Positions 19,486 through 63,101 of a stretch of DNA of 64,000 bases are shown piece after piece; position 1 is the stretch's first letter, and each line of letters starts with the position of its first letter. Below the pieces are notes generated by a model that saw nothing but the letters and a program-made list of their open reading frames with translations, had not been told where the DNA came from and did no database searches. A program made the position numbers and the translations under genes. Origin of the DNA: Haliotis asinina (taxonomy: Eukaryota > Mollusca > Gastropoda > Lepetellida > Haliotidae); the NCBI RefSeq assembly GCF_037392515.1, contig NC_090290.1, positions 55,564,753 through 55,628,752 on the forward strand, read 5' to 3'.

Positions 19486-19843
19486 ATGCTTTCAAAGATG
19501 GAGTGTGTGTTGATGTCAGTGATCCAGAGAAGGACAACTGGCCTTCTTCATTGCCTTGTCCTGTTTTTGACCATTCTGCTTCACGTAACAATGGCTTCGA
19601 GAAGAACCTTTACCTTCCTTCATTCTGACCATCTAAATGGCCATCTATGTTCCTACGGTGTCAGACAGCAAACTGAGGTTGTTAGTCAGCTTGACTGCGC
19701 CAGAAAGTGTGTCTCAGATTATCTGTGTGTCTCGTTTATCTACAATGACGTCAATAGCTCATGTCACATGTACAACAAAAGCCTAACCATCGGCGACGAT
19801 TGTGTTGAGCATGCAAACCAAGACCATATGTACTACAACTTGG
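19486..19843 (+). CDS. Gene C exon 1: signal peptide and PAN/apple-like domain
   Basis: The donor GTGAGT directly follows TTGG, phase 1, at the same domain position as in gene A. The cysteines in CARKCVSDYLC and SSCHMYN fit a PAN/apple fold. It is the intact homologue of the broken exon at 42525-42905. Confidence 0.75.
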
Positions 19844-22800
19844 GTGAGTTCAAATTTGTCATTCACAGAAAACGTTAACTGATATGATGTTTCATAATGT
19901 TTTACTTTTCTCCATAATCCAAACGGAAAACCAAAATAATCACCAAACGGAAAACCAAAATAATCACCAAACGGAAAAAATGTCACAGAGGATGAAATCT
20001 TTCGTTTGAGTGGCATTCTTGAAGTCGGCGGTATGGTGATGACAAAACTTTATGGATGATCCACTGTTTTATCTTAAGAATGACGAAGTTTCGATATGGG
20101 TTCTTAGATAGATTTCTGATAAAGAATCTATACTCAAAATTCGCCATTGTTAAGATATAGACGTTGATCATCCATAAATCATCAAAACGTTGTGTCATAT
20201 CAAAGGATGAAATCGTTTCCATGATTTCTCGATCACATGAAGACTGTCACAGAGTGCCACATACTCGTCCATTTCATAGCAACTCGAAAGCGTCACTGCA
20301 TCAGTTACCCGTAAAGATCTGGGTGAGAACTGATCTTCATCAACCCATGCTTGGTGTAAGAGGCGACTAACGGGATCGTGTTGGTTGACACATGTCATCG
20401 TATCCCAGTTGAATATGAATATGTTCATGCTGTTGATCACTGGATTGGCAATGAGTCACAGACTGTCGCCATATAGCTGAAACATTGTTGAGAGAATTGG
20501 TTGGGATGTTTTCGAAAATACACTTACACGAACACCGAACTGCGATTTCCGCCATATTGGATAGTGTTTGCAAAATCACGTTTCGACAAGGCCGATATTG
20601 AGACGCCTATTATATCACGTATACTTCATAGTCTGCTGCGACAAGTGCATCATTGAATTCTCCACACATCATAGAATCAAATTACAAATGGTCTTTGTCA
20701 CCAACACCAACTGTCTACATAAAACGAACGAGAACGAACGCGGTGCTCGAAAGACTGTGCGTTTCAAATGTAAACAAAGAAAAAATCCGATTTTACACTA
20801 CGTGGCATTTTCGGAAAGTTTCCAGCATCCCGCCGTGTAATCATTTCTTACAATGGTTAAGCACGCCTAGAATATTAAGTTGAAGAGTGTCACAGCAAGA
20901 AATAGCAAGTTAAAAAAATATACAATGCAATCATTTAATGATTCATAAGCAACAGTTACTGTCAAAGTTTCCGTGCAGCGTGACGCCATGACTAACGCAA
21001 AATCAAGCAGAACGACAACGGTACTTATCGGCATTTCTGGCTTCTTCCGTCATTTACATTGTAAACGATAAAAACATATAATACACAGATACTCTGAATA
21101 TTGCACTTTCAGTATTGTGATGTATATTTTGCGTATTTTGACCAGGTGCGAGTTTGTCAAAAACGTTTTGAAACATATTTTGATAGCAACTAGGATATCT
21201 AACTCAATATTTATACGAAAACTGCTTAAGAATATATCACAGGTCATGTCTTAATTTGGACAAATGTTACGTACACAATCTAATAGTTCTCTCTTTTTAC
21301 CTTTCATTACATACTTATGAAGAGAAATAACATAATCATAAATGTTTATATCCTAAATGAATATTCATTTACGCTACATTGATGCCAGGCAGGTGCACGT
21401 GTTGCTCGCAATAAGATACGTAGTGAAACCGTCTAATTGTTGATATATTCAGGACACTATTGCGTTTTGTCTAAAGTGTGTTGAATTCTGGCATAGAAGC
21501 CGAGACCTTTGACATATTCAATGGAAATTAGGTGAGATATATACTTATCAGCAAAGCAGTGTCGTCTTTTTCCAGCGTCACAATATGCACAAAACATGCC
21601 ATGACGTCAACTAAAATGTTGCATCATTTTCAGTTATGTTATTATATAATGTCATTACATAAGAAGATGTGTCTGTTACTCCGTTAATAGTGATGCAAGA
21701 TTAATCAAAATACATCTACACAAACAGGAGAATTTGGGAATCTAAGAACTAAATTATGTATTGCCATCCAAATCGATTTCTCATGTAGTACATTGGTATC
21801 TTTCCTTATAAACTGTGAAACTACCAAAAAGTCTCCGCTCACTTTGGGGAACTTTGTATTGGAATAGGTTTGTTCACTGTGTACAAAACATTACGAAAAT
21901 ATACTGTCCGTATTCACAGCAAATTCTCTCCATGTGATCTTAGTTACACTGACCTGATGTGAAGCATAGCGGGGTCATGCCCCCTTATCTTTATGCGTGC
22001 ACCATCTCACTGTGGACGTCATAGAAGAGAATCCATTTTTGACATTTATTGCGGGCCATTTTTAATATTAAGCGTATAACGTTGTGCATTAACACATAGC
22101 TCCATTTCATATACACTTATGTCGTTCTGACATTAGGCTGTGTTTTCTTCGCTCACACTTTTCGTAAAGATGATAAATTTAAAAAATCGTAGCAGAGTGC
22201 GTTTATTGGTATACGACGAAAACGGAGAAATGTAATGATTTTTAACGCACACAAAAGTTTTGGACAACATTTAGCAGTATCTATTTCTCAAATCCCTGAG
22301 GTTGTCACAGTTATATTTATACCAACGTATAGGAAACTAAATATTCTACATTTCTGTGTAATTTTTAGCCGTGCACAGATCCAGGACCACGCTAGCGCAA
22401 TTCTCGCACAACGTTCACTTTTCAAACCTTATGACAATGTGCGCCTGAAAATACAATCGGCATCCACGGGTTAAGGTTACGGCTAAGGTTGGAGCCCAAG
22501 TTAAGGTTGCCCTAAGGTTGTTTTGTGCAACAGGCGTATCTTTTTCTTAAGGTGATCGTAACTCTAACCTTAGTGCTTAAGGTTGATCTTAGCTAAGGTC
22601 AACTGAGCACTGGTATATTTTCTTTTGCCCTCAGTTCACAATCATAAATAATCCGTAATGATTCGTTTGAGTAGCTATGTGAGACAGTCAGTATCAACTT
22701 TGATCAATTGTGTGAATTGATAATGTTAATTTTTAACCATTTTTTTTACAAAGTTTCATCACAACATTGCAAACATGAAGTCAAATTATAGGAACTGACT

Positions 22801-28800: not shown

Positions 28801-31800
28801 TACTGTTTTATATATTTAGCGAGTATTGTCTAACCGACTAAAGACGTTTAAATTCAACGTCTTCCTTCGTCTTCGATGATAATGAGCATCATCTATGCCC
28901 CATTCTCTTCCCAAACTTCTGGAAAAATAAGACATGTAACCCCTGTGGGAAAATAAGACAACTAACCCCTGTGGGAAAATAAGACATCGAACCCCCGTGG
29001 AAAAATAAGACATCGAACCCCTGTGGGAAAATAAGACATCTAACCCCTGTGGGAAATAAGACATCGAACGCCTGTGGGAAAATAGGACATCGAACCCCTG
29101 TGGGAAAATAAGACATCTAACCCCTGTGGGAAAATAAGACATCTAACGCCTATGAGAAAATAAGACATCTACCCCTATGGGAAAATACGTCATCGAACCC
29201 CTTTGGGAAAATAAGACATCGAACCCCTATGGGAAAATAAGACATCTAACCCCTATGGGAAAATAAGACATCTAACGCCTATGGGAAAATAAGACATCTA
29301 ACCCCTGTGGGAAAATAAGACATCTAACGCCTATGAGAAAATAACACATCTAACCCCTATGAGAAAATACGTCATCGAACCCCTTTTGGGAAAATAAGAC
29401 ATCTAACCCCTGTGGGAAAATAAGACATGTAACTCCTATATGAAAATACGTCATCGAACCCCTGTGGGAAAATAAGACATCTAACCCTTATGGGAAAATA
29501 AGACATCTAACTCCTGTGGGAAAATAAGACATCTAACCCCTGTGGGATAAAATAAGACATCTAACTCCTGTGGGAAAATAAGACATCGAACCCCTTTGGG
29601 AAAATAAGACATCTAGCCCCTATGGGAAAATAAGACATCTAACCCCTGTGAGGAAATAGACATCTAACCCCTGTGAGGAAATAAGACATCTAACCCCTGT
29701 GAGGACATAGACTTCTAACCCCTGTGAGGAAATAAGGCATCTAACCCCTATGGGAAAATAAGACATCTAACCCCTATGGGAAAATACGACATCTAACCCC
29801 TGTGAGGAAAGAAGACATCTAACCCCTATGGGAAAATAAGACATCTAACCCCTGTGGGAAAATAAGACATCTAACCGCTGTGAGGAAATAGACATCTAAC
29901 CCCTGTGAGGAAATAGACATCTAACCCCTATTGGAAAATAAGACATCTAACCCCTATGGGAAAATAAGACATCTAACCCCTATGGGAAAATAAGACATCT
30001 AACCCCTGTGGGAAAATAAGACATCTAACTCCTGTGAGGAAATAGACATCTAACCCCTGTGAGGAAATAAGACATCTAACCCCTATTGGAAAATAAGACA
30101 TCTAACCCCTGTGAGGAAATAGACATCGAACCCCTGTGAGGAAAAAAGACATCTAACCCCTGTTGGAAAATAAGACATCTAACCCCTGTGAGGAAAAAGA
30201 CATCAAACCCCTGTGAGGAAATAAGACATCTAACCCCTTTGGGAAAATAAGACATCTAACCCCTTTGGGAAAATAAGACATCTAACCCCTATGGGAAAAA
30301 AAGACATCTAACCCCTGTGAGGAAATAGACATCTAACCCCTGTGAGGAAATAAGACATCTAACCCCTGTGAGGAAGTAAGACATCGAACTCCTGTGAGGA
30401 AATAGACATCTAGGCCCTGTGAGGAAATAAGACATCTAACCCCTGTGAGGAAATAAGACATCTAACCCCTGTGAGGAAATAAGACATCTAACCCCTTTGG
30501 GAAAATAAGACATCTAACCCCTATGGGAAAATAAGACATCCAACCCCTGTGGGAAATAAGACATCTACCCCTGTGAGGAAATAAGACATCTAACCCCTGT
30601 GAGGAAATAAGACATCTAACCCCTGTGAGGAAATAAGACATCTAACCCCTGTGAGGAAATAGACATCGAACCCCTGTTAGGAAATAAGACATCTAACTCC
30701 TGTGAGGAAATAGACATCGAACCCCTGTGAGGAAATAGACATCGAACCCCTGTGAGGAAATAGACATCGAACCCCTGTGACGAAATAGACATCGAACCCC
30801 TGTGAGGAAATAAGACATCGAACCCCTGTGAGAAAATAGACATCTAACCCCTATTGGAAAATAAGACATCTAACCCCTATTGGAAAATATGACATCTAAC
30901 CCCTGTGAGGAAATAAAACATCTAACTCCTGTGAGGAAATAAGACATCTAACCCCTGTGAGGAAATAGACATCGAACCCCTGTGAGGAAATAAGACATCT
31001 AACCCCTATTGGAAAATAAAACATCTAACCCCTATTGGAAAATAAGACATCGAACCCCTGTGGGAAAATAAGACATCGAACCCCTGTGAGGAAATAGACA
31101 TCTAACTCCTGTGAGAAAATAAGACATCTAACCCTATGGGAAAATAAGACATCTTACCCCTGTGAGGAAATAAGACATCTAACCCCTGTGAGGAAATAAG
31201 ACATCTAACCCCTGTGAGGAAATAAGACATCTAACCCCTGTGAGGAAATAAGACATCTAACCCCTGTGAGGAAATAGACATCTAACCCCTGTGAGAAAAT
31301 AAGACATCTAACTCCTGTGAGAAAATAAGACATCTAACCCTATGGGAAAATAAGACATCTAACCCCTGTGAGGAAATAGACATCTAACCCCTGTGAGGAA
31401 ATAGACATCGGACCCCTGTGAGGAAATAAGACATCTAACCCTATGGGAAAATAAGACATCTAACCCCTGTGAGGAAATAAGACATCTAACCCCTGTGAGG
31501 AAATAGACATCTAACCCCTTTGAGGAAATAAGACATCAAACCCCTATGGGAAAATACCACATCTAACCCCTATTGGAAAATAGGACATCTAACCCCTGTT
31601 GGAAAATAAGACATCTAACCCCTGTGAGGAAATAAGACATCTAACCCTATGGGAAAATAAGACATCTAACCCCTGTGAGGAAATAGACATCTAACCCCTG
31701 TGAGGAAATAGACATCTAACCCCTGTGAGGAAATAGACATCGAACCCCTGTGACGAAATAGACATCGAACCCCTGTGAGGAAATAAGACATCTAACCCCT

Positions 31801-34800
31801 ATGGGAAAATAAGACATCTAGCCCCTATTGGAAAATATGACATCTAACCCCTGTGAGGAAATAAGACATCTAACTCCTGTGAGGAAATAAGACATCTAAC
31901 CCCTGTGAGGAAATACACATCTAACCCCTGTGAGGAAATAAGACATCTAACCCCTATGGGAAAATAAGACATCTAACCCCTGTGAGGAAATAGACATCGA
32001 ACCCCTGTGAGGAAATAAGACATCTAACCCCTATGGGAAAATAAGACATCTAACCCCTGTGAGGAAATAGACATCGAACCCCTGTGAGGAAATAAGACAT
32101 CTAACCCCTATTGGAAAATAAAACATCTAACCCCTTTTGGAAAATAAGACATCGAACCCCTGTGGGAAAATAAGACATCGAACCCCTGTGAGGAAATAGA
32201 CATCTAACTCCTGTGAGAAAATAAGACATCTAACCCTATGGGAAAATAAGACATCTTACCCCTGTGAGGAAATAAGACATCTAACCCCTGTGAGGAAATA
32301 AGACATCTAACCCCTGTGAGGAAATAAGACATCTAACCCCTGTGAGGAAATAGACATCTAACCCCTGTGAGAAAATAAGACATCTAACTCCTGTGAGAAA
32401 ATAAGACATCTAACCCTATGGGAAAATAAGACATCTAACCCCTGTGAGGAAATAGACATCTAACCCCTGTGAGGAAATAGACATCTAACCCCTGTGAGGA
32501 AATAAGACATCTAACCCTATGGGAAAATAAGACATCTAACCCCTGTGAGGAAATAAGACATCTAACCCCTGTGAGGAAATAGACATCTAACCCCTTTGAG
32601 GAAATAAGACATCAAACCCCTATGGGAAAATACCACATCTAACCCCTATTGGAAAATAGGACATCTAACCCCTGTTGGAAAATAAGACATCTAACCCCTG
32701 TGAGAAAATAAGACATCTACCCCTATGGGAAAATACGTCATCGAACCCCTTTGGGAAAATAAGACATCGAACCCCTATGGGAAAATAAGACATCTAACCC
32801 CTATGGGAAAATAAGACATCTAACGCCTATGGGAAAATAAGACATCTAACCCCTGTGGGAAAATAAGACATCTAACGCCTATGAGAAAATAACACATCTA
32901 ACCCCTATGAGAAAATACGTCATCGAACCCCTTTTGGGAAAATAAGACATCTAACCCCTGTGGGAAAATAAGACATGTAACTCCTATATGAAAATACGTC
33001 ATCGAACCCCTGTGGGAAAATAAGACATCTAACCCTTATGGGAAAATAAGACATCTAACTCCTGTGGGAAAATAAGACATCTAACCCCTGTGGGATAAAA
33101 TAAGACATCTAACTCCTGTGGGAAAATAAGACATCGAACCCCTTTGGGAAAATAAGACATCTAGCCCCTATGGGAAAATAAGACATCTAACCCCTGTGAG
33201 GAAATAGACATCTAACCCCTGTGAGGAAATAAGACATCTAACCCCTGTTGGAAAATAAGACATCTAACCCCTGTAGGAAATTAAGACATCTAACCCCTAT
33301 GGGAAAATAAGACATCTAACTCCTGTGGGAAAATAAGACATCTAACCCCTGTGGGAAAATAAGACATCTAACCCCTATGGGAAAATAAGACATCTAACAC
33401 CTATGAGAAAATAAGATATCTAACCGCTATTGGAAAATAAGACATATAACTCCTGTGGGAAAATAAGACATGTAACACCTATGGGAAAATAAGACGTCTA
33501 AGTCCTATGGCAAAAAATAAGACATCTAACTCCTATGGCAAAAAATAAGACATCGAACTCCTGTGAGGAAATAAGACATCCAACCCCTATGGGAAAATAA
33601 GACATCTAACCCCTGTGGGAAAATAAGACATCTAACCCCTGTGAGGAAATAAGACATCTAACCCCTGTGAGGAAATAGACTTCTAACCCCTGTGAGGAAA
33701 TAAGGCATCTAACCCCTATGGGAAAATAAGACATCTAACCCCTATGGGAAAATACGACATCTAACCCCTGTGAGGAAAGAAGACATCTAACCCCTATGGG
33801 AAAATAAGACATCTAACCCCTGTGGGAAAATAAGACATCTAACCGCTGTGAGGAAATAGACATCTAACCCCTGTGAGGAAATAGACATCTAACCCCTATT
33901 GGAAAATAAGACATCTAACCCCTATGGGAAAATAAGACATCTAACCCCTATGGGAAAATAAGACATCTAACCCCTGTGGGAAAATAAGACATCTAACTCC
34001 TGTGAGGAAATAGACATCTAACCCCTGTGAGGAAATAAGACATCTAACCCCTATTGGAAAATAAGACATCTAACCCCTGTGAGGAAATAGACATCGAACC
34101 CCTGTGAGGAAAAAAGACATCTAACCCCTGTTGGAAAATAAGACATCTAACCCCTGTGAGGAAATAGACATCGAACCCCTGTGAGGAAATAAGACATCTA
34201 ACCCCTTTGGGAAAATAAGACATCTAACCCCTTTGGGAAAATAAGACATCTAACCCCTATGGGAAAAAAAGACATCTAACCCCTGTGAGGAAATAGACAT
34301 CTAACCCCTGTGAGGAAATAAGACATCTAACCCCTGTGAGGAAATAAGACATCGAACTCCTGTGAGGAAATAGACATCTAGCCCCTGTGAGGAAATAAGA
34401 CATCTAACCCCTGTGAGGAAATAAGACATCTAACCCCTGTGAGGAAATAAGACATCTAACCCCTTTGGGAAAATAAGACATCTAACCCCTATGGCAAAAT
34501 AAGACATCCAACCCCTGTGGGAAATAAGACATCTACCCCTGTGAGGAAATAAGACATCTAACCCCTGTGAGGAAATAAGACATCTAACCACTGTGAGGAA
34601 ATAAGACATCTAACCCCTGTGAGGAAATAGACATCGAACCCCTGTTAGGAAATAAGACATCTAACTCCTGTGAGGAAATAGACATCGAACCCCTGTGAGG
34701 AAATAGACATCGAACCCCTGTGAGGAAATAGACATCGAACCCCTGTGACGAAATAGACATCGAACCCCTGTGAGGAAATAAGACATCTAACCCCTGTGAG

Positions 34801-37800
34801 AAAATAGACATCTAACCCCTATTGGAAAATAAGACATCTAACCCCTATTGGAAAATATGACATCTAACCCCTGTGAGGAAATAAAACATCTAACTCCTGT
34901 GAGGAAATAAGACATCTAACCCCTGTGAGGAAATAGACATCGAACCCCTGTGAGGAAATAAGACATCTAACCCCTATTGGAAAATAAAACATCTAACCCC
35001 TATTGGAAAATAAGACATCGAACCCCTGTGGGAAAATAAGACATCGAACCCCTGTGAGGAAATAGACATCTAACTCCTGTGAGAAAATAAGACATCTAAC
35101 CCTATGGGAAAATAAGACATCTTACCCCTGTGAGGAAATAAGACATCTAACCCCTGTGAGGAAATAAGACATCTAACCCCTGTGAGGAAATAAGACATCT
35201 AACCCCTGTGAGGAAATAAGACATCTAACCCCTGTGAGGAAATAGACATCTAACCCCTGTGAGAAAATAAGACATCTAACTCCTGTGAGAAAATAAGACA
35301 TCTAACCCTATGGGAAAATAAGACATCTAACCCCTGTGAGGAAATAAGACATCTAACCCCTGTGAGGAAATAGACATCTAACCCCTTTGAGGAAATAAGA
35401 CATCAAACCCCTATGGGAAAATACCACATCTAACCCCTATTGGAAAATAGGACATCTAACCCCTGTTGGAAAATAAGACATCTAACCCCTGTGAGGAAAT
35501 AAGACATCTAACCCTATGGGAAAATAAGACATCTAACCCCTGTGAGGAAATAGACATCTAACCCCTGTGAGGAAATAGACATCTAACCCCTGTGAGGAAA
35601 TAGACATCGAACCCCTGTGACGAAATAGACATCGAACCCCTGTGAGGAAATAAGACATCTAACCCCTGTGAGGAAATAGACATCTAACCCCTATTGGAAA
35701 ATAAGACATCTAGCCCCTATTGGAAAATATGACATCTAACCCCTGTGAGGAAATAAGACATCTAACTCCTGTGAGGAAATAAGACATCTAACCCCTGTGA
35801 GGAAATACACATCTAACCCCTGTGAGGAAATAAGACATCTAACCCCTATGGGAAAATAAGACATCTAACCCCTGTGAGGAAATAGACATCGAACCCCTGT
35901 GAGGAAATAAGACATCTAACCCCTATGGGAAAATAAGACATCTAACCCCTGTGAGGAAATAGACATCGAACCCCTGTGAGGAAATAAGACATCTAACCCC
36001 TATTGGAAAATAAAACATCTAACCCCTTTTGGAAAATAAGACATCGAACCCCTGTGGGAAAATAAGACATCGAACCCCTGTGAGGAAATAGACATCTAGC
36101 TCCTGTGAGAAAATAAGACATCTAACCCTATGGGAAAATAAGACATCTTACCCCTGTGAGGAAATAAGACATCTAACCCCTGTGAGGAAATAAGACATCT
36201 AACCCCTGTGAGGAAATAAGACATCTAACCCCTGTGAGGAAATAGACATCTAACCCCTGTGAGAAAATAAGACATCTAACTCCTGTGAGAAAATAAGACA
36301 TCTAACCCTATGGGAAAATAAGACATCTAACCCCTGTGAGGAAATAGACATCTAACCCCTGTGAGGAAATAGACATCTAACCCCTGTGAGGAAATAAGAC
36401 ATCTAACCCTATGGGAAAATAAGACATCTAACCCCTGTGAGGAAATAAGACATCTAACCCCTGTGAGGAAATAGACATCTAACCCCTTTGAGGAAATAAG
36501 ACATCAAACCCCTATGGGAAAATACCACATCTAACCCCTATTGGAAAATAGGACATCTAACCCCTGTTGGAAAATAAGACATCTAACCCCTGTGAGGAAA
36601 TAAGACATCTAACCCCTATGGGAAAATATGACATCTAACCCCTATTCGAAAATAGGACATCTAACTCCTATGAGGAAATAGACATCGGACCCCTGTGAAG
36701 AAATAGACATCTAACCCCTGTGAGGAAATAAAACATCTAACCCCTATTGGAAAATAAGACATCTAACCCCTATTGGAAAACAAGACATCTAACCCCTGTG
36801 AGGAAATAAGACATCTAACCCCTATGGGAAAATATGACATCTAACCCCTATTCGAAAATAGGACATCTAACTCCTATGAGAAAATAGACATCTAACCCCT
36901 GTGAAGAAATAGACATCTAACCCCTGTGAGGAAATAAAACATCTAACCCCTATTGGAAAATAGGACATCTAACCCCTGTGAGGAAATAGACATCTAACCC
37001 CTGTGAGGAAATAAGACATCTAACCCCTATTGGAAAATAAGACATCTAACCCCAATTGGAAAATAAGACATCTAGCCCTTAAGGGAAAACAATGCCACAC
37101 ATCTAGCGGAGCTTATTTTCAGCACCGTTGTTTTCAGCTGACAGTTGTTTCAGCAGGTAATCAAAACTGAATATTCTGGCCTTGCCTGTGATTCATAACA
37201 GCAAACCTGTGTAACAGTCTAGTAGTCACAGGATTAAATTTAACGTCTACATTTCTGACATCATGTATTTTGCGATATGTTTGTCGACAATGCCCTACCA
37301 TTGATTTATTCTTTTCGTCAAGTTTCATTATTTCGAAACGTCATGAAATACTATCCATTCTAACTTGTGCTTGTATTTGGTTATAAACCAATATCCTTTG
37401 ACTTATCCTGTCGCAGTTTATGTCATCGGGAGATTATAATCCACATATCTTTACAGTTCAGCACACATACGTCGGATGTTACAACGATAACCGGCGTCGT
37501 ATACTTCCATACGGCCTCCAAACGGACTATGTCTGTATGACCATTGAAGCCTGCAAGGTGAACTGCCATGGCCGCGGATATACCTTCTTCGGAGTCGAGG
37601 TAAACAAAGATGCAGTATTAAAGTGCATTTATCACAACCGTCATCAACGCACGTACCATTAATCGACCCGGTTTGTAATTGCTCTCGTGCAACCCAAGCT
37701 TGCCGTAAATGGCAACAATCGGATCGGATGGTCTGGGTCGCAGACTAGTCTTCATGCTCCAATAGCTGATTTCAACCCCGATAAACCAAACTCATAAAAC

Positions 37801-42215: not shown

Positions 42216-42524
42216 TTCTTGATTAGTTATAGGAAATACATTTCCTCTACGCAGCGTACTTATTCCTGTAGTGAAGTGGTTGACATTTCAATCACCAATA
42301 TGATGTAATTATCCGCGTTAAACACGAAAAAAACATTTCTTTATTTTAACGATTTTTTATTGTTTAGAATGTGGGTTTTTTTTGGTCAAACCAAAATTGT
42401 TTCACTTGGGACATTAACTTGTCATGTCCTATATATAAGTATTGATTGGCACTCTCACATGATAAGTATATCAATAACTATTAATTATCAGTTAACTGTT
42501 GTGGATGACAAAGGCTGAACTCAC

Positions 42525-42905
42525 CCAACTTGATGTAATGAATACAGTTCTGCACCGTATCATTTACACAGTCGCCCTCGATGGTTACACGTGCTTGTTT
42601 TACATGGGACATGAACACTTGACGTCATTGCACATAAACTAGACACACGAGCAATCTGTGGTTCAGCTTCTGGCACAGTCAAGTTCACTGACAACTACAG
42701 CTGGTTCTGTCACCCCACTGGAACACAAATGGCCATTCAGGTGGTCAGAATGACCGAAGGTGGCTGTTCTTTCCGAGGCAATTTTGTTACGTGAAGCAAA
42801 ATTGTTACAGAAAGTGAACTGGTCAAGAACAAGGCTAACTGCCCTCTGGAACACGGCATCAGCACACACGTCCTCTTTTAAAAATCTGTCGAGTTTCTCG
42901 GAAAA
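42525..42905 (-). pseudogene. Broken copy of the gene C PAN exon
   Basis: The minus strand reads FGHSDHLNGHLCSSG and ELDCARS, matching FLHSDHLNGHLCSYG and QLDCARK of gene C exon 1. Nucleotide similarity runs from the signal-peptide region (around 42905) to a preserved donor GTGAGT (42524-42519). Stops follow directly after the CAR motif, further stops and small indels follow, and the ATG before the mature domain is lost (AACAAAATT instead of AACAATGG). No partner exons were found downstream on this strand. This is a decayed paralogue or single-exon duplicate. Confidence 0.75.
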
Positions 42906-44786: not shown

Positions 44787-46455
44787 TCATCCTGTGTTCT
44801 GGCGTGTGAGAATATGTGGAAATGCTTTTGTGATGTCCGGTGCAGTATCTTGTAATGTTCCAGTGTTGGTTAAATGCTCTAGGTACCAAACCCTAGCCAT
44901 CCAGTCTGGTTCTTCTGTGATATGGCTGAGTGCATACTGTCCTGAACGCACCCAACTAGGAGGTTGCCTAGCACGTGTCGACCTTCGTGGTGCCACACTG
45001 ACACAACTAGTGTCTGGAGCAGAGTCATCTGCGATGTCCATTTTTTCAGCTGCTTCAGGTGAAGACACAAGGTCCAAAACATCATTATTTGTCCCTTCAC
45101 TTTCAGGAATGACGCCATCTCTGTGTAGATCTGATGTATTAATACCAGCATCTTCATCCACTTCATCATCAGAAGGATTCATCTCTGTTTCTCCCGCTCT
45201 TGGAACGTGACCGTCACCATCAGGGGCGTCTTCCGCTGCTACTTCTGTCTCATGATCGTCACCACTCGCCTGAGCAGCAGTACCCGTATCTGCAGAAACA
45301 TCCTGTTTGGTATCTGTTGGAATACCAGACACTGCAGCATCTCTAATTTTGTGGATCTCTACAATTACGTCTTCCTGGCTGATGTTATCATCTGGTCGTA
45401 CTCTATCTGGTTCTGGTGGTGGTCTAGATAGTCTTGGCCTTGGTGCGGGTTTGGGTTTGGCTAATGGAGGTCCTGCTTCGGAAGACGACTCACCCTTATC
45501 AAAGTCATTAAGAGCACCGATGGGCAAATGAAGATCCCTATGCAAAGTCTTCTGTCGACCTTCGCCATTCACCTTTTTCACCACAAAGACAGGAACATCT
45601 TGATTAGGCTGAGACAGAACGATGTAAGGATTCTCCTCCCGTTTGTCTGACAGATTATGTTTGCCTTCAAAAGCCAATATCTTTACTAGCACGCTGTCTC
45701 CAGTCTGCATTGTGGTTCCCTTCACCCTTGCGTCGTGTCCTTTCTTCTGCGTGTCACGAGACGTTTTGGCGGAAGTCAAGGCTAGTTCATACGAATGCTT
45801 CAATCGTTTCCATAGTGATCTAGTACTCACTGAGTGATGTCTGTCTCATGCCAAGTTATAATTCAAAGGCAAGGTCTAGAGGGAGACGTGGTTACCTACC
45901 AAACATTAAGAAGGACGGCGATTGTCCAGCTGAATCATGGCGTGTGCAATAATAAGCATGCACAAGAGGCCCAATGTGGGATTTCCAATCGCTCTTCTTG
46001 TCAGGGGACAAAGTTCCCAACATGTCGCATAATGTGCGCTTGAACCTCTCACACACGCCATTTCCCATAGGATGATATGGTGTCATTCTGGATGTTCTTC
46101 ATGAACACAGTTCCTTTATACGATTTCCATCATAGATTGCCCCTTGATGAGAGTGTATGCGCTCTGGCATCCCATAATGCACCGTGAAGTTGTCAAAGAA
46201 AGCTTCTGCTGTAGTCTTGGCTGTCATATTGTTGGTGACATATGCCTGTGCATAACTGGCGAAATGATCCGTGGCAACTAAAACACAGTGCTTCCCTCCT
46301 TTGCATGGCTCAAGATCCAAGAAATCCATTGATGCTAACTCTAGTGGTTGAGTGGTTTCAATTCCTAAGAGACGAGCTCTCTGATTGGTTGGAGTCTTAC
46401 AACAAATGCATAGCCTGCAGTTTGTGATCCATTCATCAACGTCTTTAGACATGCC
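44787..46455 (-). pseudogene. Ty3/Gypsy-type integrase and C-terminal tail remnant
   Basis: The minus strand reads zinc-binding CRLCICC, then core motifs MDFLDLEP, HYGMPERIHSHQGA and TPYHPMGNGVCERF, then a 347-residue C-terminal frame with VLVKILAFEGKHNLSDK and NPYIVL typical of the integrase C-terminal domain. The second catalytic Asp (normally HSDQG) is His. A frameshift lies near 46090 and stops near 45885 and 45845. No protease, RT or LTRs were found nearby, so this is a 5'-truncated fragment. The C-terminal proline/acidic tail ends at TGA/TAG near 44787. Confidence 0.8.
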
Positions 46456-46559
46456 TGGCTAGAAGAATCTATCTACCAAGAAAGACAAAGTTCAAAGTCC
46501 CTCCGCCCCTTCTTACCCACTAAGATTTCTCTTCATAAATTCTAACGGTTGCTGTGGCT

Positions 46560-49323: not shown

Positions 49324-49425
49324 CTACGCATGTCCGGTGACGTTCACAGCATCCAGTTCAACCCAGTGGTTTGCAGGGCCACAGTCGACGGTGATCCGCA
49401 GTTGATCAGTTTTATAAGTTGATTG
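49324..49425 (-). CDS. Gene B exon 5: end of discoidin-like domain and stop
   Basis: Acceptor ATTCCAG; it encodes KTDQLRITVDCGPANHWVEL then DAVNVTGHA and TAG (49326-49324). The pattern LRI..D......VELDAV.VTG is the usual end of this domain type. Confidence 0.78.
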   Translation of the reverse strand, partial: QSTYKTDQLRITVDCGPANHWVELDAVNVTGHA

Positions 49426-52400
49426 CTGGAATGAAAGAAAAACGGATAAAAATAACCCTCTTCACTAAATCAGTTAATATTCAGAACAAACAGAGGGACA
49501 GTTGGGTAGTCTGGTGATGAGTGGGCTCGCTGTCGATTCCAAATATTGGTGCAAGCTTATTTCAAGTGTCCCCAAAAGTACTCTTGCAGCTTGTATGATG
49601 TCATCAGCCGACGAATGTTGTCATTCAGAATCCTATTTCACTCTTTCCTGTTTCACTGCAAGTTCTTGTTGGTTCACTGGGGTTCGTGGTCGTATGCTCA
49701 CCTGGCGATTCAGTTTGTGAGCGTGCTGGCCATGGCATAACCTGGATGTTCTGGGCGCTCAGGAATTCTGGACAATTCGCGCTGTACGGGGCCTGGCGTT
49801 GGCGTGCTGCAGAAGTGTCTCCTAAGACATCATATTGAAATGGGTTGAAGAATGTCATATCTGTATCTCTAAGTGTTCAAGTATCACCAGTTCAAGTTAC
49901 GACCAGTTGTGTACGTTGATTCCCACAAATGTCTCCTCACACCATTACACCATCTCCCCCTAAAGAATGCACATCCCCGACGCAGTTCGGTGCTAGTCGT
50001 TCTACCCGTGACAGTACATTTTCTCACCCGGCCATCTTTATGGAACATTGTGAATCGACTTCCGTCTGTAAAAAAACACTCGCTGCCAATTTCGTCAGTG
50101 CCAGTGCCATTTCACGCTCTGATATCTGCTGAGCGTAGCAACGTACGTCAACTGATGTCATGTCTTACAGCCACTTCCGTTTCTATGATCACCTGGTTGC
50201 GCAGATGAAGAGTACGCAGATGACTGTCTTCCTATAGGGTCATCACACGTGTCTGCCTGATCCTGGCCTGTCATTGGGTGCTGTCAGTCTACCTGTAACG
50301 CTTGAACAACCCGACGATGGTACCACGTGTAAGTTGATTTGATTACAATACGATTATATTCATTAAGAAAAAGACTGGACACAAGTTGTCCAACTTAGAA
50401 AAGCCCTCTCCCGATAATTACGACAATGTACACAAGACGCTAGGATATATACAACAGATGTTAACTGAGAAAGCGCTCTGTTTGAGAGATATAGACATGT
50501 ACACATTTGAAAATATTCTAATTTTCGATAGTGCAGGGCCCTTGCAATATAAATGTTGTTGGCACCCAACTGTCTCATACCTATGGCATCTGTCCTTCCT
50601 GCGCAGTTAGCCGTGGCATACTTTCGGTAGTTTCCTGTCGGCTGAGATGTATGGCCACCGTTTCGGCCTAAAACGATTTTACTAACATGAACAACTTTGC
50701 CACAGATTCAAAATGAAAAGTGTTCCTTATTGATGGGGGAAGATGTTTATGCACACACCTTTATTGGTGGGGAGAAGATGTTGTGTACATACATGTCCTG
50801 GTGGGGAGAGTATGTCTATGTACACACCTGTATTGGTGGGGAGAACATGTCTATGTACACACCTGTATTGGTGGGGAGTAGATGTCTATGTACACACCTG
50901 TATTGGTGGGGAGAACATGTCTATGTACACACCTGTATTGGTGGAGAGAAGATGTCTATGTACACACCTGTATTGGTGGGGAGAACATGTCTATGTACAC
51001 ACCTGTATTGGTGGGGAGTAGATGTCTATGTACACAACTGTATTGGTGGGGAGAACATGTCTATGTACACACCTGTAACGATGGTGAGAAGATGTCTATG
51101 TACACACTTGTATTGGTGGGGAGTAGATGTCTATGTACACACCTGTATTGGAGGGGAGAACATGTCTACGTACACACCTGTATGGGTGGGGAGCAGATGT
51201 CTGAATACACACCTGTATTGGTGGAGAGAAGATGTCTATGTACACACCTGTATTGGTGGGGAGAAGATGTCTATGTACACAACTGTATTGGTGGGGAGAA
51301 GATGTCTATGTACACACCTGTATTTGTGGGGAGAAGATGTCTATGTACACACCTGTATTGGTGGGGAGAAGATGTCTATGTACACAGTTGTATTGGTGGG
51401 GAGAAGACGTCAGTGTACACACCTGTATTGGTGGGGAGGAGATGTCTATGTACACACCTGTATGGGTGGGGAGAAGATGTCTGTGTACACACCTGTATGG
51501 GTGGGGAGGAGATGTCTATGTACACACCTGTATGGGTGGGGAGAAGATCCTGCTGGAAGTGATGACAGAGACTGAAGTCACCTGCCACAACACATCCCAG
51601 CTGGACGTAGACGGGTTCCGAGCAGACACCTCCTTCACTCCTCCAGCATGGAATGTCTCGTAGATGTCTACCTGGGTGATGTACAGCGACTGGGAGAACT
51701 GAACCTGAACAGGTATAAATATAACAGCTTATAGAGACGCAAGAGAGTTAATTGAAACTGATCTCGTGTAGTACATGGAAGTAGTGCACAATGTGAACAG
51801 TGGTTCCCCATATCATTGACTGACGTCATTACTCTGTATGGCTGTACTGAGGATCGTAAATGCATAAATTCTCGCGTTTTATGCAACTACTTGTATATTG
51901 TACGTGTGTCAATTTCAATACGTTTTCACCTTAAGATCGTGTCATGAGCAGTAAAGTGCGAAACACGATCACTGATGTATTTATCAAATCAGGCGTCACA
52001 GTAATATCTCTTTTGTAAATATAGAAAAACATTTCAAGATAATGGCTCGTAGGAAACACATGGAATTCTGTTTAACAACAACCCTTTAGAAAACGTTATG
52101 GACGGCACGTAGAGGTACCGGCAACGTTCCTCAGTAATTCCCTTTACGACCTCGTCAGCGCCGTGTGTTTGGTACTAGATTCACCTACTTCTATCTACTC
52201 AGTACCGGTGGCAACATTCCTCACTTTTCTCCCTTTACGACCTCGTCAACACAGCGTGTTCGGTACTAGATTCACCTACCTCTATCCACTCAATACCGGT
52301 CCACTGAGCTGATGCCCAGGCATCAGGGTCATCACCATAGGCGGGGTACACATCCGGGGGTCCAACTATCTTTTCAGCACTCCACCTAACATTAAACAAA

Positions 52401-55400: not shown

Positions 55401-58050
55401 CGGACCCGCGGTGGGCGCTTATGCAGGTGTCATCACTGACTTTCAGTGCTCCGTTCATATCATTTCCTCACCTGTTTCTTTTAACAACAAAAAAATCGGT
55501 TTCTGATTGTAGTCCAGATTGATGATTTTTGCCAGTGACGTTCAATATACCAAACAGCAAAGAAAATGCAAATTTCGAAAAAATGAAATATCTCAAAAGT
55601 AAGCGTTCTTGTTTATGTCTTCTATTTAAGAGCTTAACAAAAATCAGAGTTGCATTTCTTCCACTGTTCAGTATATTTATACAAATCAAAGCCATCAGTC
55701 AAAGCCCTTTGTCAACGGATGGTAAAGTCAATATATGCCGTCTCATGGTCCTGTTAATAAATCGGCTGCGGAAACTGTCCTATCGGTTATTGGACATATT
55801 GGTCTTATCATTAAACGTCCATTGGTTGGTTGGTTTTTGTTTCAAGCCGCACTCAGAGGCTTTCCAGCTATATGGCTGCAGTCTGTGAATAATCGACTCT
55901 GGACAAGAGAGTGACGTCATCTGTATCATGAGCATTAACCTACGCAGTTAGAATACAATGGCATATGTCAACAAAGTCAGCGAGTCTGACCACCCGTTGA
56001 TGACTGAAGACCAGTTCTAACCCGCATCTTCATTGGTCAATAGTTTACGACCTACTATACTGTAACATAGGAAGTACGAATGATACGAGAAAAGTTACGA
56101 AATTTTATGCTTACGAGATATTTGTGAAACGGAGTTCAGGTGTGTTAAACATGTATATGTACTCACAGTTATTTGGATGTACTTACCGGACGGCCCTATA
56201 TTGAGATGAAAAATCTACAACAGAGTCCACCCACAGTGAGATCGGTGCAGGTGCTGTAGTTACGCCTGTAGTTGTTGTCGCTGTAGTTGTAGATGTAGTT
56301 GTAGATGTCGTCGAAAAAGATGTTGTACTTGGGATGGTCGTAGCAGCAGATATCGTCGATGGAGTTGTGGTAGGAATAACAGTTGTCTCAGACGTCACTG
56401 AAGTAGTTGCAGAAGTTGTCGTTGTTGGGAGTGTTGACGCAGTTGGGACACTTGTCGTACTAGTTGAAGTGGTCGTCGTTGCAGATGTCGTCGTCGATGA
56501 AGTTGTGGTAGAAGTAACGATTGTCTCAGTTTCAGATATAACTGAAGTCGTTGCAGAAGTTGTAGCTGTGGAAGTTGTCCCCGTCGTGAACGCTGTCGTT
56601 GAAGTAACCGTTGTCAGTGCAGAATGTGTAATTGTAGGATCTGTTGATGGAGTAGATGGGGCAGTTGTAGTGGTAGTTGCAGGTGTCGTAGTAGTCAATG
56701 CCGCCATCGAACTAGTAGCGGAGGTTTCAGTTGTGTTTGAAGTTGCGGCAGCCCTTGCGTATGTGCCATTGCCTGTTACAGTGGTAAATACATGTACATG
56801 TGTGGACGAGGTACTCGAAGTCGTTCAAACAACGAGTCCAGTATTGTCTCAAATGTTCAGAACTTGGTCGCAAATGATGTATGCGGTATATACTGAACAA
56901 AAAAAGAAACTTCACACATGGCGAAAACGATCGTTCTAAAAAATGGGCAGAACAAGGTAGTTGATATCGTCCAATACCGTGACCTAACCTAACGCATCCG
57001 TTAATTTCAGCTGAGGGGTGCATGCAACACGTTCTTATGTCAGAAGCGCCACCGCAAGTGAACACGTGTGCAGACTTTGCTGGTGATAAGAACATTAACT
57101 TGAACAAATCTTTAAAGATACTATAACAGTGACGCCCGACCCCATCCCCTTCCCACCCGTACTCAAGAAGCAGCATCCGTCCTTGCATGAAACTAGGACA
57201 CGTACCCGTGTGCATCAATTGCCCAAAGTTAGGATGGCCAAATCTGGCAGTGCCATCTGCGCAATCGCATCGTCAACCAGTATAGCACTGCTTGAGCGCT
57301 GTCCATCTCCGTATTTATTTTGACCAAATTCTGACACAAGTAAACGGTAATGAAAGCGTATTCGTGGGCACAATTCGACCAGTTCCGGAAGCAGAATGAA
57401 GTGAACACGTCGGGTGTGACTAGCCTGGACATTCAACATCAAGCGTATCTCCACCGTGTTTCAGTGTCCGTTCATTACGCTCATTATCCACTTTATCTAT
57501 CCACTAGCAGCATGCGCTCTGCAAATTAGGTATGTTTGCGTCCTAAAGTTACATGTGAACATCGTTCAGTATACGTCATTGTGATGTAGACATGTACCAG
57601 TAACAGATCATTGTAGCGTTTAGTATAAGAGGAATTTGGGATTTTAATCTGTCATGGGTTCCTGGCACGCTAAAGGGACACAACTCTACAGACCAAAAAG
57701 AAAGCCTTACCTGGAAGGTTGTATCCAACCCATCCAGTCTCTGACGTGAGATTTAACTGAGACACCTGTTGTGAGTTTAGAACACACTTCTGAAGTTTTT
57801 GGTGATAGAAGAAAGCTGCACAGTCGTCCATGTTGACACAGTCCACAGCACATTCGGCTAAACTGGAAACTGTCGTCGTGTTTAGTATACGGTGTAATGA
57901 CCTCTCTCCTGATGACACATTACTTAGATCGCGTATAGAAATATCAACACAACCATTGTAACTGTGTGCTCTTTCCATTACACTCCCCATCATCAGAAGC
58001 ATTAATACACTCATGGCTGCAAGGTCCTGTCTTGAGGTGTAAGATACCAT
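49324..58050 (-). CDS. Gene B: secreted PAN-like + Ser/Thr mucin linker + FBXL4-type discoidin-like domain (5 exons, 436 aa)
   Basis: Exons 58050-57711, 56772-56187, 52385-52280, 51704-51528 and 49425-49324; phases 1, 2, 0, 0 all match, sum 437 codons with TAG. The N terminus is hydrophobic (MSVLMLLMMGSVMERAHS; ATG at 58050 or 58014), followed by a PAN-like domain (ECAVDCVNMDDCAAFFY) to about residue 113. Exon 2 is almost all T, S and A for about 170 residues, a mucin-like linker. The C-terminal domain has VDFSSQY, GPPDVYPAYGD, VDIYETFHAGGV, RIFSPPIQ and HWVELDAVNVTG, the pattern of the discoidin-like N-terminal region of FBXL4. No F-box, leucine-rich repeats or membrane anchor are present, so the protein is probably secreted. 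Exon 4 runs into the 35-bp minisatellite and uses a donor inside its first unit: stopping at an earlier GT would delete the conserved RIFSPP segment. Confidence 0.75.
49500..50345 (-). pseudogene. Decayed Tc1/mariner transposase in gene B intron 4
   Basis: Minus strand, in order and in shifting frames: GTIVGLFKRYR (HTH), LRTLHLRNQ, CFFTDGSRFTMFHKDGRVRK (first Asp of the DDE triad), QAPYSANCPEFLSAQNIQVM, PWPARSQTES (region of the second Asp), GEH. Many frameshifts and stops. No terminal repeats were identified. Confidence 0.75.
50738..51549 (-). repeat. 35-bp minisatellite built from the gene B exon 4 / intron 4 border (~23 units)
   Basis: Unit on the minus strand: CTTCTCCCCACCAATACAG, then GTGTGTACATAGACAT. 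The first half is the coding end of exon 4 (FSPPIQ), the second the start of intron 4. Every good unit therefore carries a copy of the splice donor. Units nearest the exon are well conserved; the distal ones (50738-50815) are degenerate. As 35 is not a multiple of 3 and the unit lacks stops on the plus strand, all three plus frames stay open; those frames are not genes. Confidence 0.9.
51528..51704 (-). CDS. Gene B exon 4: discoidin-like domain, middle; runs into the 35-bp repeat
   Basis: Acceptor CTGTTCAG; it encodes VQFSQSLYITQVDIYETF then WDVLWQ and SSRIFSPPIQ. The donor CAG|GTGTGT (51527-51522) lies in the first unit of the minisatellite. A nearer GTGACT at 51581 would also keep frame but would remove 18 residues including the conserved RIFSPP. 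Confidence 0.72.
52110..52292 (-). repeat. 91-bp tandem duplication covering the gene B exon 3 donor
   Basis: Two copies of the block with GGTACTAGATTCACCTAC (plus strand) start 91 bp apart (52171 and 52262). The copy next to the exon holds the used donor GTAGGT; the distal copy keeps GTAGGT as a decoy in intron 3. Confidence 0.8.
52280..52385 (-). CDS. Gene B exon 3: discoidin-like domain, first part
   Basis: Acceptor AATGTTAG; it encodes WSAEKIVGPPDVYPAYGD and AWASAQWTG up to EWIE at donor GTAGGT (52279-52274). The 3' end and donor are present again 91 bp further down in a tandem copy. Confidence 0.78.
52845..52930 (+). mobile_element. SINE family 2, 3' part
   Basis: CCGCTGTGATATTGCTGGAA, AAAGCGGCGTTAAACCA and ACTCACTCACT. 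Gene B intron 2. Confidence 0.75.
52972..53205 (-). mobile_element. SINE family 1, inverted copy
   Basis: TGGACGAGACAGTCCAGTGA, TCAACAACATGAGCATCGAT and TTAGTCGCCTCTTATAGGAC, the reverse complement of the family. Gene B intron 2. Confidence 0.8.
53605..53857 (+). mobile_element. SINE family 1, nearly full copy
   Basis: GTCGTAAGAGGCGACTAACG, CACTGGATTGTCTGGTCCAG and an ACTCACTC tail; the tail hairpin has lost about 12 bp. Gene B intron 2. Confidence 0.88.
53858..55837. other. Gene B intron 2, unique part
   Basis: No exon, RNA or repeat recognised. Confidence 0.5.
55838..56035 (-). mobile_element. SINE family 1, inverted copy near gene B exon 2
   Basis: TTCAAGCCGCACTCAGAGGC, CAGCTATATGGCTGCAGTCT and GTCAGCGAGTCTGACCACCC in reverse order. 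About 150 bp below the exon 2 donor. Confidence 0.75.
56187..56772 (-). CDS. Gene B exon 2: Ser/Thr-rich mucin-like linker and start of the discoidin-like domain
   Basis: Acceptor GTAACAG; the first two bases complete GGC. About 170 residues of T/S/A with short imperfect repeats (TTSATTS, TTTTS) predict heavy O-glycosylation. The last 20 residues (LWVDSVVDFSSQYRAV) begin the folded domain. The donor is GTAAGT at 56186-56181. The long open frame on the opposite strand is a shadow of the codon bias. Confidence 0.75.
57711..58050 (-). CDS. Gene B exon 1: signal peptide and PAN-like domain
   Basis: The donor is GTAAGG at 57710-57705, phase 1, after GYNLPG, equivalent to YYNLG of gene C. The cysteine pattern AECAVDCVNMDDCAAFFY fits PAN/apple. 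Two ATGs (58050, 58014) are in frame; the second gives a more typical signal peptide length. Confidence 0.75.
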
Positions 58051-59565: not shown

Positions 59566-60858
59566 ATGGCTTATGAAATCCCACCAAAGAAAACAAAACG
59601 TCCACTTGATATTAACCCTGTTGATACTGACCACAGACCGTCTGCATCGATTGGGTATTGGCCACGCTACCTTGCAATTGAAACTCCTGACAAGAAACCC
59701 ATTACAGTTGGACCGTTTCGCGGTATCTAAGGGTATTCAAGGTATTGCTGGGGATGTTAAAAACATTAGACGCTTATGTTCGGGTACACTGCTAGTTGAG
59801 TGAGAAAAAAAAACAGCAAGCAACCAATCTGATGAGTATTAAATCTTTCGTGGGCCTTCCGGTCACGGTCTCAGCTCACAAAACCCTAAACACAAGTAAA
59901 GGTATTGTCAGAGATCGTGATCGACTGTTTGCAGATATGTCAGAACTTGACATAGCCTGCGAAATGAAAGATCAAGGTGTGCTTTATGTCAAGCGTTTTT
60001 CAACCCGGAAAAATAATGAAACTATCCAAACAAACACCTATCTGTTTTCCTTCTCGTCTCCAAATGCTCCGGAGTCCGTAAAGGCAGGTTACTGTAACAT
60101 CCAAGTTGAAACCTACATCCCCAACTCGCTCAGGTGTTTTGAATGTCAGAAATATGGACACGGTGTATCTACCTGTACATTGTCTGTTGTGTGTGCTCAC
60201 TGTGGTGAGAAGACACACACAACAGAAGATTGTGACAGTGATTTTACAACAATACACCAACTGCTCAGGCGACCATTCATCTTCCTCGAAACAGTGTCCT
60301 ATTTGGAAAGAGCAAATGGTGATTAACAGAATAAAGTTTACCCAAAATATCTCTTTTTCTGGAGCAAAGAAACTGGTGAAGAGATCTGACCTAACAGAAA
60401 GTTATGCTACAGTAGCAAACACATCACCTGTGTACAGCTCTAAAATAACAAAATCATCCACAAGCTGCCAAACTACCTTGACTTGGGTCAGTTGCGACTC
60501 TCCACAGTTTTTGTCCCCCTGCTATATCACCTCAGACAGTGGAATCACTTCCTAGTACATCAAAGTCTTCTTCGGATCACAAATCATCATCATCACCATC
60601 TTAGTCATACTCAAAGTCTCAATCGACAACTGATAGTCTGCAAACTGTTAAAAGTAAACCTAAGCCTAAGTCTGATGCTTCAAAACAACAAAGTGGCAGA
60701 GCTCCTAAAGGGTCACAAAATAAAATTCACGTGTTCAATAAATATGGGTCTCTCGAGGACATGGACGTTTCAGAAAACGTCCATTCTAGGGCACATAGCT
60801 TGTCGCCCTCCAAAAGAGTGTGGGGTAGATCCCCAATAAATCCCCCCAAAATAATAGT
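59566..60858 (+). pseudogene. LINE ORF1 remnant (nucleic-acid-binding, CCHC knuckles)
   Basis: Starts ATG at 59566 (MAYEIPPKKTKRPLD), shifts frame near 59725 and again near 60245. The centre carries RCFECQKYGHGVSTC and CAHCGEKTHTTEDC, two CCHC-type knuckles. The reading continues out of frame as NCSGDHSSSSKQCPIWK. ORF1 proteins bind the element RNA; this copy cannot be made intact. Confidence 0.8.
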
Positions 60859-61812
60859 TTATTCCAATTATATTGTACAGTGGAACTGCAAAGGACTGAG
60901 GACTAATTTACATGAATTACAGCTATTAGACCAAGATTTTACACCTCCAGCGATCTGTCTCCAAGAGACATATTTAAAGCAAACAGATACATTTGACCTT
61001 CGTCATTTTAATGCATATCATTGTTTTTCACCTCCGGGTGATAGGGCCACTGGCGGATCATCCATTCTAGTCAGACAAACGGTTATTCAAAGCCCTGTTT
61101 CACTTATTACTAATATGCAGGCTGTTGCAGTGAGAATTACTTTACATGTAGCCTTTACGCTATGCTCTCTCTATATTTCGCCGTCTTCAACGTTTGCCAA
61201 AACTGATCTTCAAGCTCTATATGACCAACTCCCGCAGCCCTGTATTATAATGGGAGATTTAAAAGGACACAACCACTCTGGGGTAGTGTAACTACAAACG
61301 CTAAAGGTTAGTTGTTGGAGGACTTTTGTTCTGACAATGACTTATGTATTTATAATGATGGTTCCAACACATATTTACACCCTGGGACAGGGTCCTATTC
61401 TGCTCTTGACTTGTCACTCACAAATTCAGAACTACTCAATGAATTTGAATGGTCAGTCCACGATGACCTCTTTGGAAGTGACCATTTTCCTACTATACTA
61501 AAATCTGTAACTCCATCTGATGTTCCTCCATCATCAAGGCGGAATTTTAAAAAGGCTAACTGGGCTTTATATGACACACTGTGTGCTGAGAAACTTAAAC
61601 CCGAACGTTTTATTGACGTTCCTGGTGCCATTAACTGTTTTTCTGATGAACTGAATTCCATAGCTGAAGAGTGTATACCAAAGTCCTCAGCAGTTCCACA
61701 TATTCGAAAACCATGGTTCAGCGATGAATGCAAACAAGCTAGGAAGGCAAGGAAAAAAGCAGAACATTATTTCCGTCGCCATCCTATGGTGCATAATTTA
61801 GATAAATTTTAA
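60859..61812 (+). pseudogene. LINE ORF2 endonuclease domain remnant
   Basis: QWNCKGLRTN, CLQETYLK, GGSSILVR and SDHFP are the landmarks of an apurinic/apyrimidinic-type endonuclease. The usual GDFN motif reads GDLKGHN, replacing the catalytic-region Asn with Lys. A frameshift and stop lie at about 61270-61310. Reads on to the linker before the RT. Confidence 0.8.
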
Positions 61813-62424
61813 ATTTGAAATGTTAAAGCTCGGCGTACTTTTAAAAGGAACAAACGCCAATCTTGGCAAAATTATGTATCCAAAATACATTCTCGGACAC
61901 CTATGTCCAAGGTATGGAACATGGTCCAGAAAATGAAAGGTAAAGGTACTAAATCTAGTGTCCATCATCTTAAACATGGAGATCAATTACTTACTTATAA
62001 ATCAGATATTGCGAATAAACTGGGCGAAACTCTCGCTAAACATTCTTCCTCTTCTAATTATATACCTAAATTTCAGCAATATCAAAAACAACAAGAAAAG
62101 AAAACTATTAATTTCAATTCTGATAATGGGGAAAATTATAATGAAGCGTTTTCTATTCATGAACTCCATATTGCTCTTGATCAAGCTCATGACACTGCTA
62201 CAGGAGCTGATAACATACACTATCAACTATCCTGTTTAGAGACGCTCTTATCAATTTTTGATGATATTTGGACTTCCGGGAAATTTCCTTCTTCATGGCG
62301 TGATGCTATAGTAGTACCGATACCTAAACCTGGACGTGATCCATCCAATTATCGTCCGATTTCATTAACTAGCTGTGTTTGCAAGACCATGGAACACATG
62401 ATAAATAATCGACTTGTTTTACAG
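61813..62424 (+). pseudogene. LINE ORF2 reverse transcriptase, N-terminal part only
   Basis: DTATGADNIHYQL, SSWRDAIVVPIPKPGRDPSN and YRPISLTSCVCKTMEHMIN are RT blocks 1-2. After NNRLV the sequence jumps straight into RNase H; the palm with the YADD-type motif is absent. Confidence 0.85.
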
Positions 62425-63101
62425 ATGGGTCCAAGGATGGTGGCGCAGTGGCCTGTGCCACAGTCATTGGATCCAGAACAATATATTCTAGATTACCAGA
62501 TAATAGTTCTATTTTTACAGCTGAAGCTAACGCCATATTAACAGCTCTTAAATATATTCAAAGACACCCTGAACGTAAACAATATATAATCTATTCAGAT
62601 TCTCTTTCTTGTCTTCAAGCGATTAAAAATTTGTCATGTAAACATCCACTTTCAATTGACAGTATTGAATTGTATAATAATTTTGATACTGGCCAATACG
62701 ACATCGTCGTCTGTTGGTTACCAAGCCATGTAGGCATTTCAGGTAACACAATGGCCGATCTTGCTGCCAAGACAGCACTCGACAAATCTGTGACACCACT
62801 TCTTATCCCATACTCTGATTACAAAGCGAGCATTAGAACTTATATACGGGATCTGATGCAAAAGAAGTGGGACACTCAAGTAGATATAAATAAATTACAT
62901 GAAATAAAACCGTATATTGGTAACACATACTTGGGCTGTCAGTCCAGATTTGAAGAGGTAATCATGCGGCGATGTCGTATTAGCCATACTAGGTATACGC
63001 ATGAATACCTTTTAAAAGGTGAGGAACCTCCGTTTTGCATCCCTTGTGATGAGAGAACCACGGCCAAGCATATCCTGCTTGACTGTGTTGAATTCTCATG
63101 A
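62418..63101 (+). pseudogene. LINE ORF2 RNase H domain and C-terminal zinc motif
   Basis: All four acidic residues of an RNase H are present in context: FTDGSKDG, FTAEANAI, IYSDSLSCL and NTMADLAAK. Downstream CIPCDERTTAKHILLDC is the C-terminal CCHC-type motif of such elements. This stretch is open to the stop after EFS, unlike the rest of the element. Confidence 0.85.

Follow-up and report, generated by a model that had tools for sequence, protein, structure and literature searches.

A 35-bp minisatellite in intron 4 of an abalone gene, probably copied from the exon 4 splice border

How does a tandem array come to lie against the splice donor of a gene; which of the two was copied from the other, and what do the many copied donors do? 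These questions are raised by a window of the Haliotis asinina genome (the whole stretch that was analysed, 64,000 nucleotides of contig NC_090290.1), in which the fourth exon of a minus-strand gene runs directly into a series of 35-bp repeats. An initial annotation, made from the letters alone, had proposed a minisatellite of about 23 copies born from the border between exon 4 and intron 4 and had placed it at 50738-51704, an interval that takes in most of the array plus exon 4. We favour the reading, with a probability of about 0.78, that this is a near-neutral minisatellite that was born at the splice border and is removed with intron 4. All positions given here are those of the window.

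The array is real. Tandem Repeats Finder (TRF) reports a 35-bp unit in 23.5 copies at 50728-51548 (score 1299). Its intronic part (50728..51527, minus strand), counted in 35-base steps from the donor, consists of 21 in-register units (k = 0-20) followed by a degenerate end of about two units, and its remainder (51528..51548, minus strand) is formed by the final 21 nt of exon 4, which encode IFSPPIQ. Each of the roughly 22 head-to-tail copies joins 21 coding nt from the tail of exon 4 to the 14 nt with which intron 4 starts; the consensus is GTGTGTACATAGAC + ATCTTCTCCCCACCAATACAG, the ATCTTCTCCCCACCAATACAG part being exon 4's last 21 nt with one change. The exon tail matches this consensus at 20 of 21 positions and unit 1 at all 21, and the exon homology of the unit ends at base -22. 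Across the 127,958 positions on the two strands of the window, array and exon tail aside, no match to the consensus tail exceeds 15 of 21, a level reached just once. In other words, the unit has the composition that had been claimed for it, the end of exon 4 (FSPPIQ) plus the start of intron 4.

Which sequence is the source? The near-identity of exon tail and unit would also suit the reverse event, in which a pre-existing intronic minisatellite invaded exon 4 at its end, its sequence passing into the protein, but it is directionless by itself; direction comes from protein conservation. The motif IFSPP is invariant in five of five aligned proteins, namely the H. asinina protein P0001, two from Mya arenaria, one from Dreissena, and one insect F-box protein. 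In a 10-row alignment of the domain, IFSPP appears in two Haliotis rows and in P0003, with IFSPT and IFSPV in P0007 and P0008, and is not seen in the other five rows, which are distant proteins of 27-37% identity. Additionally, P0006 of H. rufescens, 81% identical, reads SRIFSPPIQ and runs directly on into the exon-5-like TPTYKTDQL, where H. asinina has QSTYKTDQL. Because IFSPP is common to other molluscs and an insect F-box protein, we judge the exon to be the source and the array the copy, the coding sequence of the exon presumably being older than the array. The reverse event, already disfavoured by the invariance of the motif in mollusc and insect proteins and by its retention in H. rufescens, is scarcely credible.

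How, then, did the copies multiply? In the history that we prefer, a tandem duplication would have copied exon 4's last 21 nt and, with them, the 14 nt that open intron 4; unequal exchange would afterwards have expanded the copies to about 22 within the intron. The initial annotation had seen the units decay away from the exon, as if the array had grown outward from the border. Unit identity to the exon tail does fall weakly with distance (rho -0.48, p 0.027; with the last unit excluded, rho -0.39, p 0.086), but identity to the array consensus shows no such trend (rho 0.02, p 0.92). Outward growth is thus a weak proposition. In the distal half, units 13, 15, 17 and 19 are mutually identical without being adjacent, and neighbours among units 8-19 resemble one another less than they do after shuffling (p for being at least as alike, 0.996); these identical non-adjacent units and unlike neighbours suggest block exchange rather than stepwise growth at the border. 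As for higher-order repeats, mean identity at lags of 1-4 never exceeded that of shuffled units at p 0.05 (the lowest p was 0.14). Assemblies are generally prone to error in tandem arrays, and this is what would speak for a false copy number here; the units, however, differ at many places (25-35 of 35 positions identical pairwise), which argues against one unit multiplied by software, and we consider the chance of an artefact to be practically negligible.

Two further accounts of the origin were considered and dropped. A minisatellite core motif of the Jeffreys type, taken as a possible seed, has 32 matches in the window at up to three mismatches (13 of them at 50766-51547) vs 14.5 expected, and none of 100 shuffles reaches 32; we set it aside because the array copies match at two to three mismatches only and one repeated sequence amounts to one event. 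In the intron-gain model of Rogers, both intron ends lie in duplicated copies; the acceptor of intron 4, TTTTTCTTTCATTCCAG/CAATCAAC (a slash marks the splice point throughout), is by eye unlike the unit.

The consequences of the copied donors depend on the gene around them, which was modelled by hand on the minus strand with five exons, four GT-AG introns and 424 codons before the stop. Exon 1 (57711..58014) carries a signal-like start and a PAN domain and exon 2 (56187..56772) a Thr-rich linker; exon 3 (52280..52385) ends at the donor GAG/GTAGGT (52280/52279) and exon 4 (51528..51704) at the donor CAG/GTGTGT (51528/51527); after an intron 4 of 2,102 nt, exon 5 (49324..49425, acceptor TTTCATTCCAG/CAA) is the last and carries the stop codon. 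A protein search with the C-terminal part as query gave five proteins out of 47 candidates. The best match, P0001, is an NCBI protein of Haliotis asinina and is 100% identical across the searched region; its 436 residues are the model with 12 extra residues at the N-terminal start, the remaining letters being identical. Since its letters are those of the hand model, P0001 has the same exon junctions, the first-donor junction of exon 4 included.

Are the copied donors still donors by sequence? Mostly so, as had been stated: 17 of 22 borders (exon 4's own and those ending units 0-20) read exactly CAG/GTGTGT, i.e. the real donor and 16 copies, and the others are two CAG/TTGTGT and one each of CAA/CTGTGT, CAA/GTGTGT and CAT/GTATGT, with one extra AAG/GTGTGT at 50758. 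Donor-like 9-mers matching at least 8 of 9 positions number 50 in the window (both strands), and 18 belong to the array series, including the real donor and the AAG/GTGTGT site. Downstream of the border stands the in-frame stop foreseen for the second donor, within four codons (GTG TGT ACA TAG). Because this stop sits in the first unit, all downstream donors lead to the same end: in silico messages that keep 1 to 20 units before joining exon 5 all read SPPIQVCT-stop, and the protein loses the part encoded by exon 5. The full protein is therefore predicted from the first donor only, as the initial annotation had it, and the junction in P0001 agrees. The stop lies 23 nt from the last junction when one unit is kept, 58 nt when two are kept, and 35 nt farther with each additional unit. 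Nonsense-mediated decay (NMD) is usually taken to require a stop more than 50-55 nt before the last junction. If this rule holds in molluscs, use of the second donor (GT at 51492) would yield a stable truncated message, whereas NMD could apply only from the third donor onward (58 nt or more), such that the earlier suggestion of NMD-targeted isoforms was overstated for the second donor and may stand for those beyond it. Within exon 4 there is also a donor-like site, CAG/GTGACT (51573..51584, minus strand; GT at 51581), whose use in silico drops 18 codons in frame, including RIFSPP and the strand at residues 396-398. Skipping of RIFSPP by this route, an outcome to which attention had been drawn, would cost the protein the IFSPP that five of five aligned proteins keep.

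Could the copies nonetheless be put to use? They might act as the donor bank of the initial annotation, competing with the first donor so that truncated or NMD-targeted isoforms are made under regulation and array length adjusts their output. There is material for such competition, since 16 exact copies and one AAG/GTGTGT lie no more than 800 nt from the true donor, and in human IFI6 repeat units farther downstream reportedly serve as donors (PMC4526556). Yet the sole annotated protein uses the first donor, and the donor columns are not detectably conserved: the nine columns hold 5 changes in 180 cells vs 30 in 520 elsewhere (p 0.16), so that neither protection nor excess loss is detectable. 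We regard a donor bank as unlikely. RNA structure does not appear to hide the decoys either: a stretch made of exon 4's last 35 nt and six units has no folding advantage over its shuffles (z -0.08; as good a fold in 85 of 200). Under the near-neutral reading, the upstream-most border would remain the working donor and the array would leave with intron 4, mostly as a neutral passenger. It would be tolerated for two reasons: the true donor precedes all the copies, and a copy, if used, truncates the protein after VCT.

Two features came to light beyond the initial annotation, the first being an acceptor-like half in each unit. The exon tail is C/T-rich and the borders consequently resemble 3' splice sites as well: the 16 nt before them hold 11-14 pyrimidines, vs 9-14 in the gene's four real acceptors, and AG is missing at 3 of the 22. 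Acceptor-like sequence and donor are juxtaposed, as a pyrimidine-rich CAG/GT, at 17 of 22 borders, the first being the real donor and the likeness being one of sequence only. An intact border spliced to a later one would rebuild CAG/GTGTGT, and each border followed by another 35 nt on would constitute an arrangement like that of a recursive-splicing (RS) exon. The spliceosome might accordingly pass from border to border, shortening the intron stepwise and rebuilding the exon end with the mRNA unchanged. The pyrimidine counts and the RS-exon-like spacing fit this idea, and ratchet points are defined by a juxtaposed acceptor and donor (PMC8605326), but known ratchet points occur in long introns (PMC8605326) and intron 4 has just 2.1 kb; we find such recursive use very improbable. 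A more general speculation, likewise a long shot, is that a phase-0 border with a pyrimidine-rich coding tail gives rise to a self-restoring splice array in which the intron is shortened stepwise; because border-to-border splicing leaves the mRNA unchanged, array length would be hidden from selection.

The second new feature is a further duplication, at the exon 3 donor. TRF and sequence comparison place a 91-bp x 2 tandem duplication at 52120..52300 (minus strand), made of the last 21 nt of exon 3 and 70 nt of intron 3. The exon 3 donor sits in the first copy; the second copy of the exon tail differs at 3 of 21 places, and splicing from its donor, GAA/GTAGGT, would bring in a stop 46 nt upstream of the junction between exons 3 and 4. 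Tandem duplications in this gene hold two of four donors and none of four acceptors, with tandem-duplication scores of 224 at the exon 4 donor, 47 at the exon 3 donor, 4 and 0 at the other donors, and 0-5 at the four acceptors. Among 1,500 random positions, drawn without excluding the 8-kb satellite, 295 have the same score at 40 or more, and the 1,111 of them that lie outside arrays reach at most 24. A rough binomial for at least two of four donors, chosen post hoc and with both donor arrays themselves in the background, gives p 0.024 (any array of period at least 20, 8-kb satellite excluded) or p 0.002 (outermost units only), making an excess of donor duplications over chance suggestive only. 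In each of the two donor-spanning duplications the exonic share is exactly the final 21 nt of the exon concerned (51528-51548 and 52280-52300, minus strand), which may be a coincidence.

Several points weigh against a near-neutral minisatellite with a working first donor. The duplication at exon 3 raises the possibility that this gene is in some way prone to such events. Every one of the five changes in the donor columns falls on one or other of the two G's that flank the splice point; this could be a sign of selection against decoys, on small numbers and a post hoc choice. The record of P0001 may itself be a prediction, and it is on this NCBI protein and the sequence that use of the first donor in RNA rests. 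Finally, comparison beyond H. asinina was at the protein level, which bears on how the array can be dated.

As for the gene product, its layout is a PAN domain, a Thr-rich linker and an FBXL4-like C-terminal domain. Sequence and fold together identify the last as an FBXL4-like discoidin-fold domain, with homologues 31-46% identical, one of them named FBXL4-like and one an F-box protein. PF25900 is a precomputed domain annotation on P0001 that the Pfam scans run in this analysis did not list; a Pfam match to MavL (E 0.0052, below its cut-off) was taken as chance. Fold comparison against the PDB gave PAPP-A chains as the top three matches and no FBXL4 chain among the best 50 listed, and PDB sequence searches with the gene product found nothing. 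AlphaFold2, with an alignment of 5 sequences, modelled residues 341-436 at block pLDDT 82-95 against a whole-protein mean of 54.5, and the modelled C-terminal domain has its two final strands, at residues 409-417 and 426-435, encoded by exon 5.

Elsewhere in the window are an 8.2-kb satellite (28924-37078; 26-bp unit, about 317 copies) and a 114-bp unit in 13.5 copies with 98% matches (4851-6392). A PAN-type sequence with in-frame stops (42517-42770, minus strand), 63% identical over 59 residues to a PAN-like exon at 19600-19851 (plus strand), looks like a decayed copy. Open frames at 59796-63101 (plus strand) and 46102-46458 (minus strand) resemble, by eye only, pieces of retroelement endonuclease/reverse transcriptase and integrase.

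Why does this locus matter? Because a conserved coding motif tells which way the copying went, the source of this minisatellite can be given to the base. The array also offers a natural test of how the spliceosome settles on the first donor when about 18 are nearly identical, and of whether abalone genomes show recurrent tandem duplication at splice donors. If self-restoration were true, the second donor duplication would make splice donors a recurrent minisatellite seed in the genome.

Judging by the listings of literature searches confined to an open-licence library, we found no description of the abalone array; the nearest printed kind is the IFI6 minisatellite. Turri, Cuin and Porter 1995 reportedly described the minisatellite of human IFI6 (6-16, G1P3) as providing multiple splice donors. 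Two downstream repeat units of IFI6 are reported as used donors that give isoforms (PMC4526556). Both genes pair an exon/intron border with a tandem array whose unit contains a donor, exact here at 17 of 22 borders, but the abalone unit includes 21 coding nt, its 35 bp are not divisible by three and it introduces a stop, whereas IFI6 copies are reported to be used. In potato RdRp, a tandem duplication likewise crosses a splice border (PMC4974935), but there an intron/exon border, the acceptor, was copied and a new intron arose, whereas the abalone gene has donor borders in many copies. The fission yeast genes SPOG_01682 and SOCG_00815 have introns made of several tandem copies, with proto-splice sites common to exon and intron (PMC3629103); there the intron itself was gained from repeats, whereas the 3' end of the abalone intron is unrelated to the unit. 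The ratchet points of Drosophila, in long introns and with their use tested (PMC8605326), share with the abalone units an acceptor and a donor side by side, in our case a run of look-alikes in a 2.1-kb intron known from sequence alone. The 38-bp variable-number tandem repeat (VNTR) of hTERT intron 6, whose copy number matters for splicing (PMC3948165), is an intronic array of similar unit size, but the part of the abalone array that was folded is no more structured than its shuffles (z -0.08). Among the systems compared here, the splice-donor minisatellite of human IFI6 is the closest precedent for the abalone array.
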